The position numbers were made by a program, and so were the translations under genes. A stretch of DNA of 64,000 bases from Tessaracoccus bendigoensis DSM 12906 (GTDB taxonomy: Bacteria > Actinomycetota > Actinomycetes > Propionibacteriales > Propionibacteriaceae), in contig NZ_FQZG01000004.1 of the NCBI RefSeq assembly GCF_900141915.1, forward strand, positions 1 to 64,000, written 5' to 3'. Shown piece after piece: positions 22,526-34,089 of the stretch; the stretch's first letter is position 1, and each line of letters starts with the position of its first letter. Below the pieces are notes generated by a model. The model did no database searches. It was not told where the DNA came from and worked only from the letters and a program-made list of their open reading frames with translations.

Positions 22526-22767
22526 AATCGGCCAGTGGTCGATTCTGGTGTGTCTGGGGTCGAGTATGGGCCACTGCCTTGGTTGGCTGGGTTCGGTCGT
22601 CTTTCGTTGGAGTCGCGAGGATCGGCCAGTGGTCGATTTTGGTGTGTCTGGGGTCGAGTATCGGCCACTGCCTTGGTTGGCTGGGTTCGGTCGTCTTTCG
22701 TCGGAGTCGCGAGGATCGGCCAGTGGTCGATTTTGGTGTGGCTGGGGTCGAGTATCGGCCACTGCCT
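22526..22767 (+). repeat. three tandem copies of the 51-bp element (94-bp period), cluster B
   Basis: Copies at 22526-22576, 22620-22670 and 22714-22764. Each starts with CGGCCAGTGGTCGATT, has the centre TGGTGTGTCTGGGGTCGAG and ends with CGGCCACTG. CAGTGGTCGAT at the left can pair with ATCGGCCACTG at the right through one G-U pair (copy 1 has one change). The 43-nt spacers between copies are identical except for one base (CGTTGG/CGTCGG), so this is a tandem duplication. The 22336-22922 gap holds nothing else recognisable. Confidence 0.85.
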
Positions 22768-22922
22768 TGGGTGCCGTGGCGGGGGGAGGGACTCGGCTGA
22801 CGCATCCAGGCCTTAATTCTGTGAGCGTCGCGAGGTTATCCACAGATGTCGTGGAGGTGCGGTTGGTTGAGCCCTTCTGTTGGTTCAATGGAGCCTCATC
22901 AAGTCTCAAGGTGGAGGTTCGG

Positions 22923-28429: not shown

Positions 28430-29473
28430 GTGATGACTGCCGAGCAACTGCTGGCCGGGCCGCGGGGGCGGCGGCTCCTGCTTGGGCTTGCGTTGGAGAG
28501 TGACCGAACTTGCGACGATGGGCCGGGTCCCCTGTGGAGCGCGGTCTTCGACGCGTCGTTCCTCATCGCACAGTCCCAGTGTCACTCAGTGTCGCGGTTT
28601 GGTTGGGGCGACCTCACCCCGAAGCACACGGAGTTTGACGTCGCCGAAGCTCTGTCTGCGCTGACCCTCGCTCCGGTCACCGATGCACGGCTGTTCGACG
28701 CCCTTCAGCGCTCGGTCGATGCGGCGATGTACTGGCAGGAGCCCGACGGCGACGACCTGCTCTGCGCCATTCCGCAGGTCAGCCAGGCACTGATCAGGGT
28801 CGCGCGGCATGCGGCCTCTGCGCCTATCCCCGGCTGGTGGAGCGAGCCTGTGGCCCGCGACGATCAATGGGAAGTCGCCTGGGCTGAGGCACCCCTCCAG
28901 CAGGACGGCGAGCTCCTGACCTGGCGCGAGGAGGTCGTCAGGGCCGAAGTCGAGGCGCGCGTCAACCTGCCTGCCGACATCACGGCCAACGCTAGCGGCT
29001 GCTGGTGGTCGCGCCCGCCGCACTGGCTAACCAGCAGCACCCGCACCACGTCAGACGGGGTTCCCGTCGGAATGCGGCTGGTCGAGGATGGCCTTGGCTG
29101 GTCGGAGGCCACCGTGCACAAGCTCGCCGTCCCCGACCATGCTCGGGTGTATGAGGTCGACACCCCGGATGCCTGGGCCAGGTTGTGTCGCGACTTTCCG
29201 CTGGAGGTGACCGCGCAGCATCGCCACGACTGGTACCGCACCACCAGGAGGGACGGCGACTGGGTCATCCCCGACTGGTCGGCGGTCGCTGGGAGCTGGT
29301 CGGGCATACACCTCACCGTCGCTGCCTACGTGGAAGCGGCGACGACCGCGATCCCGGTGACCGGGCGACTCTCCAGCGTCATCGCGGGATGCGACCCGGA
29401 CACCACGTGGTGGTTCCCTGGAGTCGTCACCCGTACCGGCGAACAGCGCCCCATCGCGCTTCCCGCAGATTGA
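28430..29473 (+). CDS. hypothetical protein, Trp-rich
   Basis: A 347-residue soluble protein that I do not recognise. It has many Trp residues (CWWSRPPHWL, TTWWFPG, GWWSEP), a central WREEVVRAEVEARV helix and a C-terminal WSGIHLTVAAYVEAA. There is no signal peptide or membrane segment. GTG at 28430 lies 7 nt after TAGCCT with no binding site, so it is probably leaderless; ATG at 28433 is the next choice. Codon use is like that of its neighbours. Confidence 0.7.
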   Translation: MMTAEQLLAGPRGRRLLLGLALESDRTCDDGPGPLWSAVFDASFLIAQSQCHSVSRFGWGDLTPKHTEFDVAEALSALTLAPVTDARLFDALQRSVDAAMYWQEPDGDDLLCAIPQVSQALIRVARHAASAPIPGWWSEPVARDDQWEVAWAEAPLQQDGELLTWREEVVRAEVEARVNLPADITANASGCWWSRPPHWLTSSTRTTSDGVPVGMRLVEDGLGWSEATVHKLAVPDHARVYEVDTPDAWARLCRDFPLEVTAQHRHDWYRTTRRDGDWVIPDWSAVAGSWSGIHLTVAAYVEAATTAIPVTGRLSSVIAGCDPDTTWWFPGVVTRTGEQRPIALPAD

Positions 29474-29503
29474 GACAGGCCGCGCCGGAGAGGCAGGACG
29501 CAG

Positions 29504-30130
29504 TCAGTCGTCGACTTCCACCTTCAGGACCTCACCGGTGGTGGCGTCCACGTAGATCTCGACGCGACCCCCGGCCTCCGCGCGGACCAGCACCTCCCAC
29601 ACGAGCGTGCCGCGTTCCGTGTCCAGGTCCAGCTCTATGACCTCGCCAGGAGTGTTGCCCAACGCGATCCCGATCGCCTCCGTGGCGCTGATCTGAGGCG
29701 CGGTCGACTGGGTCAAGCTCAGGCGGGTGTCGCGGGTGCGCGTCACCTCGCCACTCTGGGCGTCGATCGTCAGTTCGACCCCGGTGCCGTCCTCACGAAT
29801 CACCGTCACCTCCCAGGCGCGCCGCTCGGCGTCGATCTCCACCACGGCGCCGGGCGAATGCGCAAGAGCTGCCTCGATGGCGCGGGTGGCGTCGAGAGGA
29901 CCCTCGGGGACGGCGGTCGCCGACGCTTCGTCGGTGGGGGTCGGCGTGCCTTCGGTCGTAGCTGTCGGTGTGCTCTCTGCTGACGGCGAGCCAATCGGGG
30001 CAGTCACGCTCGGCGATGTGCCGGTCGGGGAAACCTCAGGTGATGACGGCGTCGAGCAGGCCGTCGGTAGCAGCAGGGCCGCGGCCGCCAAAGAGGTCAG
30101 GGCGAGGCTGCTGGGTCGGGTGGTGGGCAT
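29504..30130 (-). CDS. PepSY-domain lipoprotein
   Basis: A 208-residue lipoprotein: signal peptide with lipobox LPTAC (Cys25), a Ser/Thr/Pro-rich linker to about residue 78, then two PepSY repeats. The first is ATRAIEAALAHSPGAVVEIDAE...TIDAQSGEV and the second ATEAIGIALGNTPGEVIELDLD...YVDATTGEV. PepSY domains are commonly linked to protease inhibition or envelope sensing. The ribosome binding site is GGGAGGA. The next gene on the same strand ends about 50 bp away on its upstream side. Confidence 0.85.
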   Translation of the reverse strand: MPTTRPSSLALTSLAAAALLLPTACSTPSSPEVSPTGTSPSVTAPIGSPSAESTPTATTEGTPTPTDEASATAVPEGPLDATRAIEAALAHSPGAVVEIDAERRAWEVTVIREDGTGVELTIDAQSGEVTRTRDTRLSLTQSTAPQISATEAIGIALGNTPGEVIELDLDTERGTLVWEVLVRAEAGGRVEIYVDATTGEVLKVEVDD

Positions 30131-30181
30131 TGGGTCCTCCCAGGGCGTCGTCGCGAATTGGGGCGTGCAGCATCGACTGGG

Positions 30182-30610
30182 TCAGGTTTGCTGCTCTACG
30201 GGTTGAGCGAGCAGTCGGCGGACCCCGGCCCGGGCGAGCATCAACACGAGGATCAGGGCCGTTACCGACCAGAAGCCGCCGAGTTTGACGGATTCCCCGA
30301 AGAAGAATGCGACCAGTTCCAGGACCACGAACTTGCTTCCAACCAGCGTAAGCCACAGCAACAAGGCTGAGGTCACCTTGCCGAAGGCCGTGGTGGAAGC
30401 CTTCATCCTGACCTTGATGCGGTCCTTGATCGCGACGACGACTTCCAGGACGGCCTTCAGCAGCACCGACGTCAGAAGTGACATGGTGAAGGTCTCGGTG
30501 ATCACCAGCGGTAGGTACTCAGCGGCCAGGTTGAGGACCACTACGTAGACGAACACATCCACCACGTCCGCGGCTGAAGGTCGCCGGTTCCGCTTCTGCT
30601 CTGTAGGCAT
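30182..30610 (-). CDS. small integral membrane protein
   Basis: A 142-residue protein with about three hydrophobic segments: DVFVYVVVLNLAAEYLPLVI, SALLLWLTLVGSKFVVLELV and WSVTALILVLMLARAGVRRL. Between the first two lies an amphipathic stretch VLEVVVAIKDRIKVRMKAS. It matches a widespread uncharacterised membrane family in my recollection, but no function is known. Its start lies 5 nt after TAACCT, possibly leaderless. It faces away from the repeat-rich gap. Confidence 0.7.
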   Translation of the reverse strand: MPTEQKRNRRPSAADVVDVFVYVVVLNLAAEYLPLVITETFTMSLLTSVLLKAVLEVVVAIKDRIKVRMKASTTAFGKVTSALLLWLTLVGSKFVVLELVAFFFGESVKLGGFWSVTALILVLMLARAGVRRLLAQPVEQQT

Positions 30611-30706
30611 GGTGAAGGTTAACGCCTATCAGGAACGGCTGTCGACGTCAGCCCTCAGCGCACAGTTGGGAGGACCTCAACCCTCGGGCCGGTCACCTTC
30701 CCCGAA

Positions 30707-30993
30707 AATCGACCAGTGGTCGATTCTGATCGGTCTGGGCACGAGGATCGGCCACTGCTCTGGTCACGGCGTGCGTCTGGTGAGCGGTAGGCGGGCTTCC
30801 GCCGTCGGCGTTGTCCGAGAATCGACCAGTGGTCGATTCTGCTCCGTCTGGGAGGCAGGATCGGCCACTGCATTGCCATCCGGCCGAGGGGCGCGGCGTC
30901 GACGTGTGGGCGTTGGCCGATTCTTCAGGCAAGAGGGGTCAGAAGTGACCAGTGGTCGATTTTGGTCCGTCTGGGCGCGAGAATTGGCCACTG
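30707..30993 (+). repeat. three copies of the 51-bp element, cluster C
   Basis: Copies at 30707-30757, 30820-30870 and 30943-30993, all the same orientation as cluster B. The first two begin with the 19-bp palindrome AATCGACCAGTGGTCGATT (two 9-bp arms around a central G). All end in A-T-(C/T)-GGCCACTG and share GTCTGGG in a 21-nt centre that otherwise varies. The spacing between copies is irregular (113 and 123 bp), and the spacers are unrelated to those of cluster B. Confidence 0.85.
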
Positions 30994-31026
30994 CCTAAGG
31001 TGGTACGCCGGGCCGGTACCGCGGCG

Positions 31027-31072
31027 GATCGGCCATTGGCCGGTCTGAAGCGTCTGGCCCTTCGACATATCG
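31027..31072 (+). repeat. decayed fourth copy of the 51-bp element
   Basis: GATCGGCCATTGGCCGGTC keeps the 9-1-9 palindrome layout of the intact copies with different bases (one mismatch per arm pair), followed by TGAAGCGTCTGG as in their centres. The right half is not recognisable. Confidence 0.4.
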
Positions 31073-31166
31073 TGGGGTTCCCCCGGGCATCCTGAGCGGG
31101 CTCGTCTGTCGGGGGTGCCGTCTCGTCAGTCAGAACACGGCCCTTGGGTCCGACGTGTGCACAAAT

Positions 31167-31219
31167 CTCTCTATACGTGGAGGCAGGTGCCATATGGGGT
31201 CGCCTCGACGTATAGAGAG
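31167..31219. repeat. 18-bp inverted repeat with a palindromic loop
   Basis: CTCTCTATACGTGGAGGC (31167-31184) is the complement of GCCTCGACGTATAGAGAG (31202-31219) at 17 of 18 positions. The 17-nt loop contains the palindrome CCATATGG. AT content is above the surroundings and there is no U-tract, so it is unlike the other terminators in the window. Confidence 0.7.
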
Positions 31220-31271
31220 GACTAGGCACGCCACGTCGGGTGACGCGGACTTGGCCGTGACCGAGGTTCGT

Positions 31272-31580
31272 GTTGTTACCAGCGGTGTTCGACGGTTACC
31301 AGCGGTATTGCTGGTCACCTGCTGTATACCGCTGGTGTCGCGCCATACTGCTGGTGTCGACGTCGTATCGCTGGTGTCGAGGTGTTGCGGTCACTGCGGT
31401 TTGCGTTGTTACCAGCGATGTTCGACGGTTACCAGCGGTATTGCTGGTCACCTGCTGTATACCGCTGGTGTCGCGCGCTATTGCTGGTGTCGGCGTCGTA
31501 TCGCTGGTGTCGCGCGCTATTGCTGGTGTCGGCATCGTATCGCTGGTGTCGCGCCATATCGCTGGCGACGGCGACCTTTC
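31272..31580. repeat. GCTGGTGTCG / TTACCAGCGG repeat island
   Basis: The decamer GCTGGTGTCG occurs eight times (31331, 31350, 31370, 31464, 31483, 31503, 31522, 31542), spaced alternately 19 and 20 nt. Its core is also present inverted as TTACCAGCG four times (31276, 31297, 31409, 31430). Two 108-nt blocks (31272-31379 and 31405-31512) are near-identical with a 133-nt offset, and the second is followed by one more 39-nt unit. CCAGC...GCTGG pairs can form several small hairpins. It starts just past the nadC stop. Confidence 0.8.
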
Positions 31581-31603
31581 CCTGGTGACGCGACCCCGAG
31601 ACC

Positions 31604-32467
31604 CTACAGATCCAACCCCAGATCCAGGACAGGCGCCGAGTGCGTCAACGCGCCGACGGCGAGGAAGTCGACCCCCGTCTCGGCGACCTCGCGAGCCCGG
31701 TCCAACGTCAACCCGCCACTGGCCTCCGTCCGGACCCCCGCCGCGCGGCAGAGGCCGACAGCGGTGACGGTGTCTGCCGTCGTGAAGTTGTCCAACAGCA
31801 CCAGATCTGCGCCCACCGAGATCGCCTCGGCGACCTGGGCAAGCGTGTCGCACTCGACCTCGACGGCGACCTCGGGCGCGTGCTGCCGGACGGCCTGGTA
31901 GGCGGCGGCGACCGAGCCGGCCGCGGCGACGTGGTTGTCCTTGATCAACGCGGCATCCCCAAGGGCCATGCGGTGGTTCACCCCGCCGCCGCAGACGACG
32001 GCGTACTTCTGTAGCGACCTAAGTCCTGGCACCGTCTTGCGGGAGTCACGCACCCTCGCGTCCGTCCCGGAGATCGCCTCGGCCCAGAGCGCGGTCTGCG
32101 TCGCCACCCCGGACAGCTGCCCCAGGAAGTTCAGCAGGGTCCGCTCAGCCGTCAGCAGCGTCCGCAGCGGCCCCGAGATCTCGAGGACGGCGTCGTCGGG
32201 GGAGACCCGGGACCCGTCCTTGGCAAGCACCTTCGTCGTCACCTCTACCCGTCGGGAGTCGGCGACCTGCCGCAACACCTCAATCGCCACCGGCACCCCT
32301 GCGATCGTCCCGGCCTCCCGGGCGACGACGAGCGCGGTGCCGACGGCGTCGGCCGGGACCGTCGCCTCCGTCGTGACGTCGGGGCCGAGGCGCAGGTCTT
32401 CGTAGAGAGCCAGGGTGACGAGGCGTCGCATCTCGTCGGTGGAGACGGCTTCGAAGGGGTCGGTCAT
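31604..32467 (-). CDS. nadC: nicotinate-nucleotide pyrophosphorylase (quinolinate phosphoribosyltransferase)
   Basis: Converts quinolinate and PRPP to nicotinate mononucleotide, the last step of the de novo branch of NAD synthesis. The 287-residue protein has ALYEDLRLGPDVTTEAT, RTLLNFLGQLSGVAT, DSRKTVPGLRSLQKYAV, and a C-terminal barrel with DLVLLDNFT and EASGGLTLD. It starts inside the last codons of nadB (4-bp overlap), so nadA-nadB-nadC form one operon. Confidence 0.96.
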   Translation of the reverse strand: MTDPFEAVSTDEMRRLVTLALYEDLRLGPDVTTEATVPADAVGTALVVAREAGTIAGVPVAIEVLRQVADSRRVEVTTKVLAKDGSRVSPDDAVLEISGPLRTLLTAERTLLNFLGQLSGVATQTALWAEAISGTDARVRDSRKTVPGLRSLQKYAVVCGGGVNHRMALGDAALIKDNHVAAAGSVAAAYQAVRQHAPEVAVEVECDTLAQVAEAISVGADLVLLDNFTTADTVTAVGLCRAAGVRTEASGGLTLDRAREVAETGVDFLAVGALTHSAPVLDLGLDL

Positions 32468-34089
32468 GCCGCGGTCCTTTCGGTGGGGGTGGGAACGGCG
32501 TCGGTCAGTGAGACGCTGCCGGAGGCGTCGAGGCCGACCGCGATCCGACGCACCCAGCCGACGTGGCTCTCGGGATGGTCGAGGCGACGGTGGCAGCCCC
32601 GCGACTCGGTGCGGGCTGCGGCCGCTGCCGCGAGCGCGACGGCGCAGAGGTGGAGGTTGGTGGCCGTGAGGGTCTCGTCCGCGATCGGTTCGCCGCCGCC
32701 CGGCAGGCTCGCCAGGAGCGCCGACAACTGGCCCAGGCCGTGGGCGGACCGCTCAACGAACGCGTGCCGCTGCATCGCCTGCTTGAGGCCAGCGACGGCG
32801 CCGCTCGAGATGGTCGCGGTGGCGGGCCGATCAACAGGCAGCCCCGGGCGCGGCAGCGGTCCCTCGGTAAGCAACCGGCCGACCCTGTCACCGGCGACCA
32901 GGGCCTCCGTCAACGAGTTCGAGGCCAGTCGGTTCGCGCCCTGCACCCCGGTTGCCGCCACCTCGCCGACGGCGAACAGGCCAGGTACCGAGGTGCGGCC
33001 GTCGAGGCTGGCCGCGACTCCACCACACGAGTAATGCGCCGCGGGGTGGATAGGGATTGGGGAGCCGATCGGGTCGACGCCGCGCCCCCGGCAGAGCTTC
33101 AGGATGCCCGGGAAGCGTTCCTCCCAGACGGCCGCCCCGAATGCGGTCGCATCCAGGAAGGCGTACGGTTCCCCGGTCTCGCCCAGGTGCGCCATGATCG
33201 CGGCCGACACGACGTCGCGCGGCGCGAGGTCGGCCAGAGGGTGTCGGCCCGCCATGATCCTGGTGCCCAAACCGTCTACGAGGAAGGCGCCCTCGCCACG
33301 GACGGCCTCGCTGATCAGCACCCCGCGCTCGGTGGCGGCGTCGTCGGCAAGCACGGTCGGGTGGAACTGCATGAACTCGACGTCGCGGGCCACGGCCCCT
33401 GCCCGCAGCGCCGCGGCGAGGCCGTCTCCGGTGGCTCCTGTCGGGTTGCTGGTCACGGGCCACAACTGCCCGATCCCGCCGCTGGCAAGCACGACGGCGT
33501 CGGCCAACAGGTCGGAGATCGCCCCATCGGCGTGCAGGAGTCGCACCCCGCAGGCACGCCCATTGGCGTCCGTCAGGATGTCGACCAGCCGGGTGTCCTC
33601 TCGGACAGTCGTGTTCGACCCTTCAAGCCCGCTTCGGAGCGCTTCCCACAGCGTGCGCTCCACCTCCGCGCCGGAGGAGTCGCCGTCGGCGTGGATGATG
33701 CGCCTGGCGCTGTGCCCGCCCTCCAGATGCAGGTCCAGTTCCCCGGACGGGGCGAGGTCGAAGCGTGCCCCCAGTGCGATGAGACGGCGGATCGCGCCCG
33801 GCGCGGAGGCGACCAGGTCGCGCACGGCGGCTTCGTCGCAAAGCCCCGCACCAGCGGTGAGGGTGTCGGCGACATGGGCTTCAAGCGTGTCGGCGTCGTC
33901 CCAGACGGCGGCCAGGCCACCCTGCGCCCAGTCGGTGGCCGAATCGGTGACCCGACCCCTGGTAACCGCCACACAGTCGACGCCCGCGGCGGCAAGGTGA
34001 AGCAGCGCGGACAGGCCGGCTGCCCCGGTGCCGACGACGACGACCCCGGTGTGCCCGGTGGCCACGGGAGCCTCGGTGACGAGCCTCAT
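32464..34089 (-). CDS. nadB: L-aspartate oxidase
   Basis: FAD enzyme that oxidises L-aspartate to iminoaspartate, the substrate of NadA. The 541-residue protein has the FAD fingerprint [20 protein letters not shown], the succinate-dehydrogenase-like [32 protein letters not shown] and [17 protein letters not shown]. The C-terminal helical domain is complete. It overlaps nadA and nadC by 4 bp each. Confidence 0.95.

Follow-up and report, generated by a model that had tools for sequence, protein, structure and literature searches.

The island beside nadC

In the window, by which we mean the whole stretch of 64,000 nucleotides analysed here, the nadC gene ends about 17 bp from an island of short, regularly spaced half-sites (Table 1). 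The preliminary description had pointed to eight exact decamers with alternating 19- and 20-nt spacing and to four inverted cores, and this observation is confirmed. The decamer GCTGGTGTCG occurs eight times, always between 31331 and 31551 (0.36 copies expected in the window, with a maximum of two in 100 shuffles), starting at 31331, 31350 and 31370 and then at 31464, 31483, 31503, 31522 and 31542, in alternate steps of 19 and 20; the four inverted TTACCAGCG cores carry ACCAGC at the left-arm positions of Table 1. The block duplication, previously put at 108 nt, is real and larger, with 115 of 126 aligned bases identical between two blocks at an offset of 133 bp.

The 19/20 alternation continues outward through the degenerate half-sites GCTGGC and CCTGGT and inward through an ACCTGC in each copy, so that what had been described as inverted cores are the left arms, and the decamers the right arms, of two bipolar elements. 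The island is therefore composed of two tandem copies of one bipolar element, in which a 20-bp dyad, ACCAGC-N8-GCTGGT (ACCTGCTGTATACCGCTGGT in the nadC island), is followed in both directions by outward-running half-sites, at 19 bp and then at 20 bp. The right arm of the second copy follows steps of 19/20/19/20/19/20 counted from 31464. No predicted gene overlaps the island according to a purpose-written codon-usage gene finder, in keeping with its earlier description as gene-free, and mechanical open frames do traverse it. When positions 29000-33000 were scanned against Rfam, the single match was to M23, below threshold (E 0.51) and located at 31001-31052, so not within the array.

Table 1. 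Features of the nadC island and its surroundings, in window coordinates.
Feature	Position	Strand	Basis or remark
Third-family repeats, CAGTGGTCGAT-N22-ATCGGCCACTG	30700..30998	+	
Separate dispersed hairpin family, 18-bp inverted repeat with 17-nt loop	31167..31219	.	repeat search
Bipolar element, copy 1 (126 bp; repeat period 133 bp)	31254..31379	.	repeat search; 115/126 identical to copy 2
Left-arm half-site ACCAGC, copy 1, outer	31278..31283	-	next one at 20 bp
Left-arm half-site ACCAGC, copy 1, inner	31298..31303	-	dyad half-site at 19 bp
Central dyad, copy 1, ACCTGC-TGTATACC-GCTGGT	31317..31336	.	left half-site one base off consensus
Right-arm half-site, copy 1	31350..31355	+	19 bp outward of dyad half-site 31331
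Right-arm half-site, copy 1	31370..31375	+	another 20 bp out
Block copy 2	31387..31512	.	repeat search, alignment; right arm continues to 31586
Left-arm half-site, copy 2, outer	31411..31416	-	
Left-arm half-site, copy 2, inner	31431..31436	-	
Central dyad, copy 2, ACCTGC-TGTATACC-GCTGGT	31450..31469	.	
Right arm, copy 2	31483..31586	+	exact at 31483, 31503, 31522, 31542; degenerate at 31561 (GCTGGC) and 31581 (CCTGGT)
nadC, adjacent gene	31604..32467	-	end about 17 bp from array

A family of bipolar arrays in two Tessaracoccus species

The proximity to nadC that had been noted is correct, and the array is not specific to this gene. In the source genome (G000; 4.13 Mb in 158 contigs), GCTGGTGTCG is found 110+111 times, against 22+23 for a reversed-pattern control, and the spaced pair GCTGGT-N13/14-GCTGGT 110+128 times, against 7+3. 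The same pair reaches 156+128 (control 2+5) in one congener, G026, stays between 0 and 9 in the other 34 genus genomes of the same search, and is found at counts of about control size in 24 genomes from the rest of the order. The nadC island is one of dozens of scattered arrays in the source genome, and G026 carries a set of its own.

The search of relatives for the 19/20-nt array proposed in the preliminary description gave a narrow range. The strict pattern ACCAGC-N8-GCTGGT-N13-GCTGGT is present in three of 198 family genomes, at 19+23 sites in the source genome, at 57+57 in G026 and at a single site in G016, with controls at zero; 36 of the 37 congeners besides the two carriers have no match to it and the remaining one has the single site. 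The family is lineage-restricted, with two carrier species plus one single site among the 198 genomes, and a restriction to one strain, part of what the preliminary description would have counted against its reading, does not hold, given the arrays of the second species (a comparison between species). No carrier besides the source genome was found among 396 genomes of a phylum sample. Three matches in IMG/VR were judged by eye to be low-complexity or chance, and no viral copies were accepted. A de novo search for bipolar arrays of any exact 6-bp half-site found none in G015 or G025 (400 kb of each), nor in 232 kb of G026 away from the listed arrays; this search was strict, recovering arrays in 20 of 21 sources from G026 and in just 9 of 39 from the source genome, so that degenerate arrays would be missed. 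In a nadC tree, the source genome joins G015 and G008 and not G026, with a support of 92/89 that is not decisive. The two carriers, set against the 37 congeners, provide the comparison by which the gene of a putative binder could be located.

The anatomy of the element was followed in 21 regions of G026 and 38 of the source genome around listed sites, plus the window, which hold part of each genome's sites. With a step script that tried 19 first and then 20, 18 and 21, allowing one mismatch and counting tandem copies separately, the first outward step was 19 bp in every continuing arm, 109/109 in G026 and 94/94 in the source genome (203/203 in total); one arm and 14 arms, respectively, had no further half-site past the dyad. 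The second step was 20 bp in 55 of 58 cases in G026 and in 82 of 84 in the source genome, and later steps were mostly 20 in the former and a mixture of 19 and 20 in the latter. Neighbouring half-sites in minus-then-plus order stood 14 bp apart in 55/61 and 39/74 instances, respectively.

The arm consensus reads GCTGGTg.CGAgcaAcAACGCTGGT in G026 and GCTGGTg.CgAGc..TaccGCtGGT in the source genome; judging from these sequences, homology between the two sets seems to extend past the half-site. Mean pairwise identity between loci, computed on 23 loci of G026 and 28 of the source genome, was 1.00 and 0.91, respectively, for half-sites, 0.67 and 0.59 for inner spacers, and 0.53 and 0.67 for the centre, a contrast between half-sites and spacers that is inflated, partly by construction, since the loci were recognised by their half-sites; common descent and the picking of loci could contribute in part to half-site conservation. 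Directly after GCTGGT (both strands), GTCG (91) and GACG (79) lead in the regions of the source genome, and GAAC (78) and CAAC (64) in those of G026. As GACG follows GCTGGT in many units of the source genome, CGTC precedes ACCAGC on the opposite strand.

Genomic position, neighbours and spread

In the examined regions the arrays lie between predicted genes. The codon-usage gene finder gave no gene overlap of more than 40 bp for any of the 61 clusters. These clusters include L278:1544-1625, on contig C51 of the source genome, an unrelated 19-bp tandem repeat of GCTGGTTGAGCCGGGCTGG which imitates the spacing of the half-sites and is included in the counts; three regions of the source genome (L299, L302 and L313) gave no cluster under the rule used, and a 100-base stretch (L315) was left out. 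For the 52 clusters with both flanks, the flanking genes are oriented ++ in 15 cases, -- in 13, +- in 12 and -+ in 12, which corresponds to 28 gaps between genes of the same direction, 12 convergent and 12 divergent.

The adjacent genes are ordinary chromosomal ones, with, for instance, domains of an era-like GTPase, leuA, glutamate dehydrogenase, pgi, glutamine synthetase, thymidylate kinase, secG and mscL. Pfam was scanned one by one for 78 of the 110 adjacent proteins (45/45 in G026 and 33/65 in the source genome) at E 1e-6, and 17 of the 78 had no match at this threshold. A separate tally of recurrent families over all 110 neighbours, restricted to the 25 commonest of 70 families in G026 and of 85 in the source genome, brought up repeatedly only LacI-type regulators (3/45 in G026 and 2/65 in the source genome) and Epimerase (2/45), which were judged ordinary. 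No transposase, recombinase, Nop, cas or replication-initiator domain was found among the 78 scanned neighbours. As 17 of these have no Pfam match, an enzyme of a new type may be among them or be encoded at some other place in the genome.

The placement of the arrays does not look inherited site by site at the loci compared. Two consecutive neighbour genes are common to both species in two pairs of loci, L284/L268 (methylmalonyl-CoA mutase) and L312/L271 (pgi), and in both pairs the arrays of the examined regions lie on opposite sides of the common genes. Tandem copies specific to one locus are frequent, and long similar blocks connect different loci in the source genome. Opposite-side placement and local tandem copies together suggest a family that spreads, by moving or by recombining.

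Joining to other repeats is also observed. At L288, L309 and L318 of the source genome, copies of a 227-bp element whose inverted ends read CCAGGACTCCTGAC stop short next to arrays, which shows mosaic joining; array-MITE junctions are one-sided, with neither a clean insertion site nor a target duplication to be seen. This MITE-like element is found at L285:3884-4110 (contig C77), with ends CCAGGACTCCTGAC/GTCAGGAGTTCTGG, and has nearly full copies in L291 and L292; of the copies in L286, one is cut by the end of the contig and another is incomplete. One flanking repeat contains an open frame of 149 residues, which was considered and rejected, as it has no Pfam match and the repeat is the 227-bp element itself.

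What may read the arrays

The bipolar half-site arrays constitute a genuine family, specific to its lineage; most likely a protein reads them and recombination or transposition has spread them. Strict spacing, near-invariant half-sites next to variable spacers, use of divergent gaps and the lack of excess pairing point to half-sites recognised as DNA by a protein more than to terminators or hairpin RNAs. We thus consider it reasonably probable, if well short of certain, that the nadC island is one locus of a repeat family which is dispersed between genes, confined to a lineage and made up of half-sites for a sequence-specific DNA-binding protein. In such a mechanism, the 20-bp dyad would be read by a dimer or a larger assembly, and extra subunits would load on the outward half-sites in steps of 19 and then 20 bp, close to two turns of the helix. 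Copies would get to new gaps by transposition or recombination, and each locus would then grow as the whole element is duplicated in tandem and as half-site units are gained or lost. As to the protein, the two probable candidates are a recombinase moving the family and an architectural DNA-binding protein. If a protein does read the arrays, the order 'dyad, then 19, then 20' would represent a testable footprint of a cooperative DNA-binding assembly. Of the three readings offered in the preliminary description (a multi-site protein-binding array, a nucleoid or replication-related site, and a chain of hairpins ending nadABC transcription), the first is the best fit, with binding deduced from the sequence pattern, so that the earlier interpretation is partly supported overall.

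A more ambitious version of this reading is that of a chromosome-marking system, where a dedicated protein would nucleate on the 6-N8-6 dyad and load outward at 19 and then 20 bp. Dozens of intergenic loci, concentrated in one part of the chromosome and flanking parAB in one species, would thereby carry nucleoprotein platforms with two arms, the family being mobile and lineage-specific. We regard this version as doubtful. Also unlikely in our view is a cellular site for chromosome organisation or replication, at which a conserved protein would nucleate on the dyad, load outward and mark an origin-side domain. This is weakly hinted at by the distribution of the arrays. In the source genome, a contig of 5,435 bases (L318, on C66) contains parA and parB, as assigned by Pfam, and three parS-like sites, with half-site arrays at both contig ends. 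The parS-like sites were scored against what we take to be the parS consensus, and each of these three has two mismatches. In G026, five of the eight listed loci on C1 (2.02 Mb) lie within its first 187 kb, and the rest of this contig, 1.84 Mb or about 56% of the genome, holds just 3 of 24 listed loci; 14 further entries, beyond the listed ones, come after C7 in the order of contigs and are therefore not on C1. Contig C2, with six of the listed loci, is the one on which the parS-like sites and parAB of G026 lie. Against an organising role, no listed array is present between 162 and 246 kb of C2, whose parS-like sites are at 183 kb, nor did the 16 kb surrounding these sites yield any. The limits of the clustered regions were drawn post hoc, contigs tend to break at repeats, and the GC skew is too flat to place the origin arms. 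Arrays in just 2 of 39 genus genomes would also be odd for a core function. An origin-side role is taken here as a lead.

The family could alternatively consist of REP/BIME-like palindromes moved by a RAYT (a Y1 tyrosine transposase), existing mostly as RNA hairpins downstream of genes; like these, the arrays are dispersed, intergenic, palindromic, many-copy and patchy among species. This we hold to be unlikely: the Y1_Tnp profile (PF01797) matched none of the 39 genus genomes (the control matched in 5/14 genomes), and there is no excess of pairing between arms. Within the Actinomycetota, we take Acidipropionibacterium thoenii to belong to the same family as Tessaracoccus. RepRanger tabulates REP calls for this phylum, that species included (PMC12306157), and untagged REP-like sequences are mentioned in M. 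tuberculosis in an account whose list of five phyla with CGTC repeats lacking a dedicated transposase does not include Actinobacteria (PMC3733652). Members of the GTAG and CGTC superfamilies of REP, BIME and REPIN sequences are dispersed extragenic palindromic repeats, as the arrays are, and the CGTC that precedes ACCAGC in many units of the source genome recalls the second superfamily (PMC3733652). However, REPs as described there prefer tandem and convergent gaps, whereas the arrays use divergent gaps as freely as convergent ones; in addition, the arrays have bipolar half-site arms, are not accompanied by a RAYT in the 39 genomes, and do not carry the single unpaired tag at the end of a stem-loop that marks CGTC-tagged REPs (PMC3733652).

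Less probable still is a chain of RNA hairpins that would end or stabilise nadABC and other transcripts. The short distance to the end of nadC fits this reading, and positions 31254-31600 do fold better than shuffles (z -6.21 on the plus strand and -4.35 on the minus strand), but the inverted arms and half-sites force such folding. Arms that paired as RNA, or as a DNA hairpin under selection, would be expected to have left and right spacers that agree better within an element than between elements. Matches between left and right spacers numbered 194/299 against 201.4 in shuffles for G026 and 191/364 against 217.1 for the source genome, so that complementarity between opposite arms does not exceed shuffles in either and is below them in the latter. 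Self-pairing of the centre is also below column shuffles in both species (38/92 against 50.3; 69/112 against 76.2), and the low pairing is ascribed to a putative conserved asymmetry copied in both orientations. In a scan of positions 31000-31700, no intrinsic terminator, understood as a G+C-rich hairpin with a T run 3' of a gene, was found in the array; the sole terminator-like site, at 31250-31265, precedes the first half-site and is on the plus strand, opposite to nadC. In 13 congeners, one of them G026, the nadC locus was found to lack any exact half-site pair. Together with the 12 divergent gaps of 52, these results speak against the termination of nadABC that had been suggested.

Neutral expansion of a tandem repeat without any binding protein, which we judge very unlikely, would account for the local duplications that clearly enlarge single loci; it would leave unexplained why the same dyad and the 19-then-20 rule recur at dozens of loci in two species, and why half-sites are near-invariant next to variable spacers. 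A guide-RNA array of the TIGR-Tas type (short repeats, short spacers and 36-nt guides) is the least probable of all: it shares with the Tessaracoccus arrays short conserved words about every 20 nt, variable stretches between them, a unit near 40 nt and, in TasR-type repeats, a final CCA that the minus strand of the half-site also contains (PMC12045711), but the arrays have two arms about a dyad and occur at dozens of scattered loci, their intervening stretches have a consensus and are not unique, no Nop-domain gene is among the 78 scanned neighbours, and snoRNA-type boxes are absent or rarer than in the flanks, a weak piece of evidence since it rests on snoRNA box motifs and not on the CCA/UG definition of the published system. 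A CRISPR, which the preliminary description had already set aside, was rejected as well, as the spacers share a consensus and the scanned neighbours contain no cas domain. The resemblance to iterons that had been noticed stands as such and does not go beyond it. Plasmid iteron origins with an inverted-repeat operator combine direct repeats of about 19-22 bp with an inverted repeat of the same half-site. The arrays have direct repeats of similar length plus an inverted repeat of the half-site, but, contrary to these origins, they are chromosomal, occupy dozens of loci and have no rep gene among the scanned neighbours.

The nearest known system is the neisserial dRS3/NIME arrays. The dRS3 repeat, ATTCCC-N8-GGGAAT, is a 20-bp palindrome with almost 700 copies in the meningococcus, where it forms intergenic mosaic arrays (NIME); these repeats are thought to recombine, and one type is the integration target of phage Nf1 (PMC3898611). 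Both systems share a 20-bp palindrome of 6-N8-6 architecture, many copies and intergenic arrays at least a few hundred bp long, and differ in taxon and in core sequence, which is ACCAGC-N8-GCTGGT in Tessaracoccus (PMC3898611). Furthermore, in Tessaracoccus single half-sites run outward as direct arrays at 19/20 bp, and no counterpart of the RS elements, which occupy 30-160 bp between the neisserial palindromes, was recognised (PMC3898611). No phage link of the dRS3-Nf1 kind was found for the arrays. Dispersed palindromic repeats are treated mainly in Gram-negatives in the papers cited (PMC3733652, PMC3898611), and no earlier description of bipolar half-site arrays was found in the searched, mostly open-access literature.

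Other dispersed repeats adjoin some of the arrays, without a regular alternation with dyads being seen in what was not a systematic survey. Two further families are represented close to the nadC island. The inverted repeat at 31167-31219 has relatives in five other regions of the source genome (L300, L305, L278, L310 and L311). The third family, with complementary ends CAGTGGTCGAT and ATCGGCCACTG, is found at one place in G011, at none in 37 other genus genomes, G026 included, and at 32 places in the source genome; in the window it occupies positions 22527-22770 in addition to those given in Table 1.
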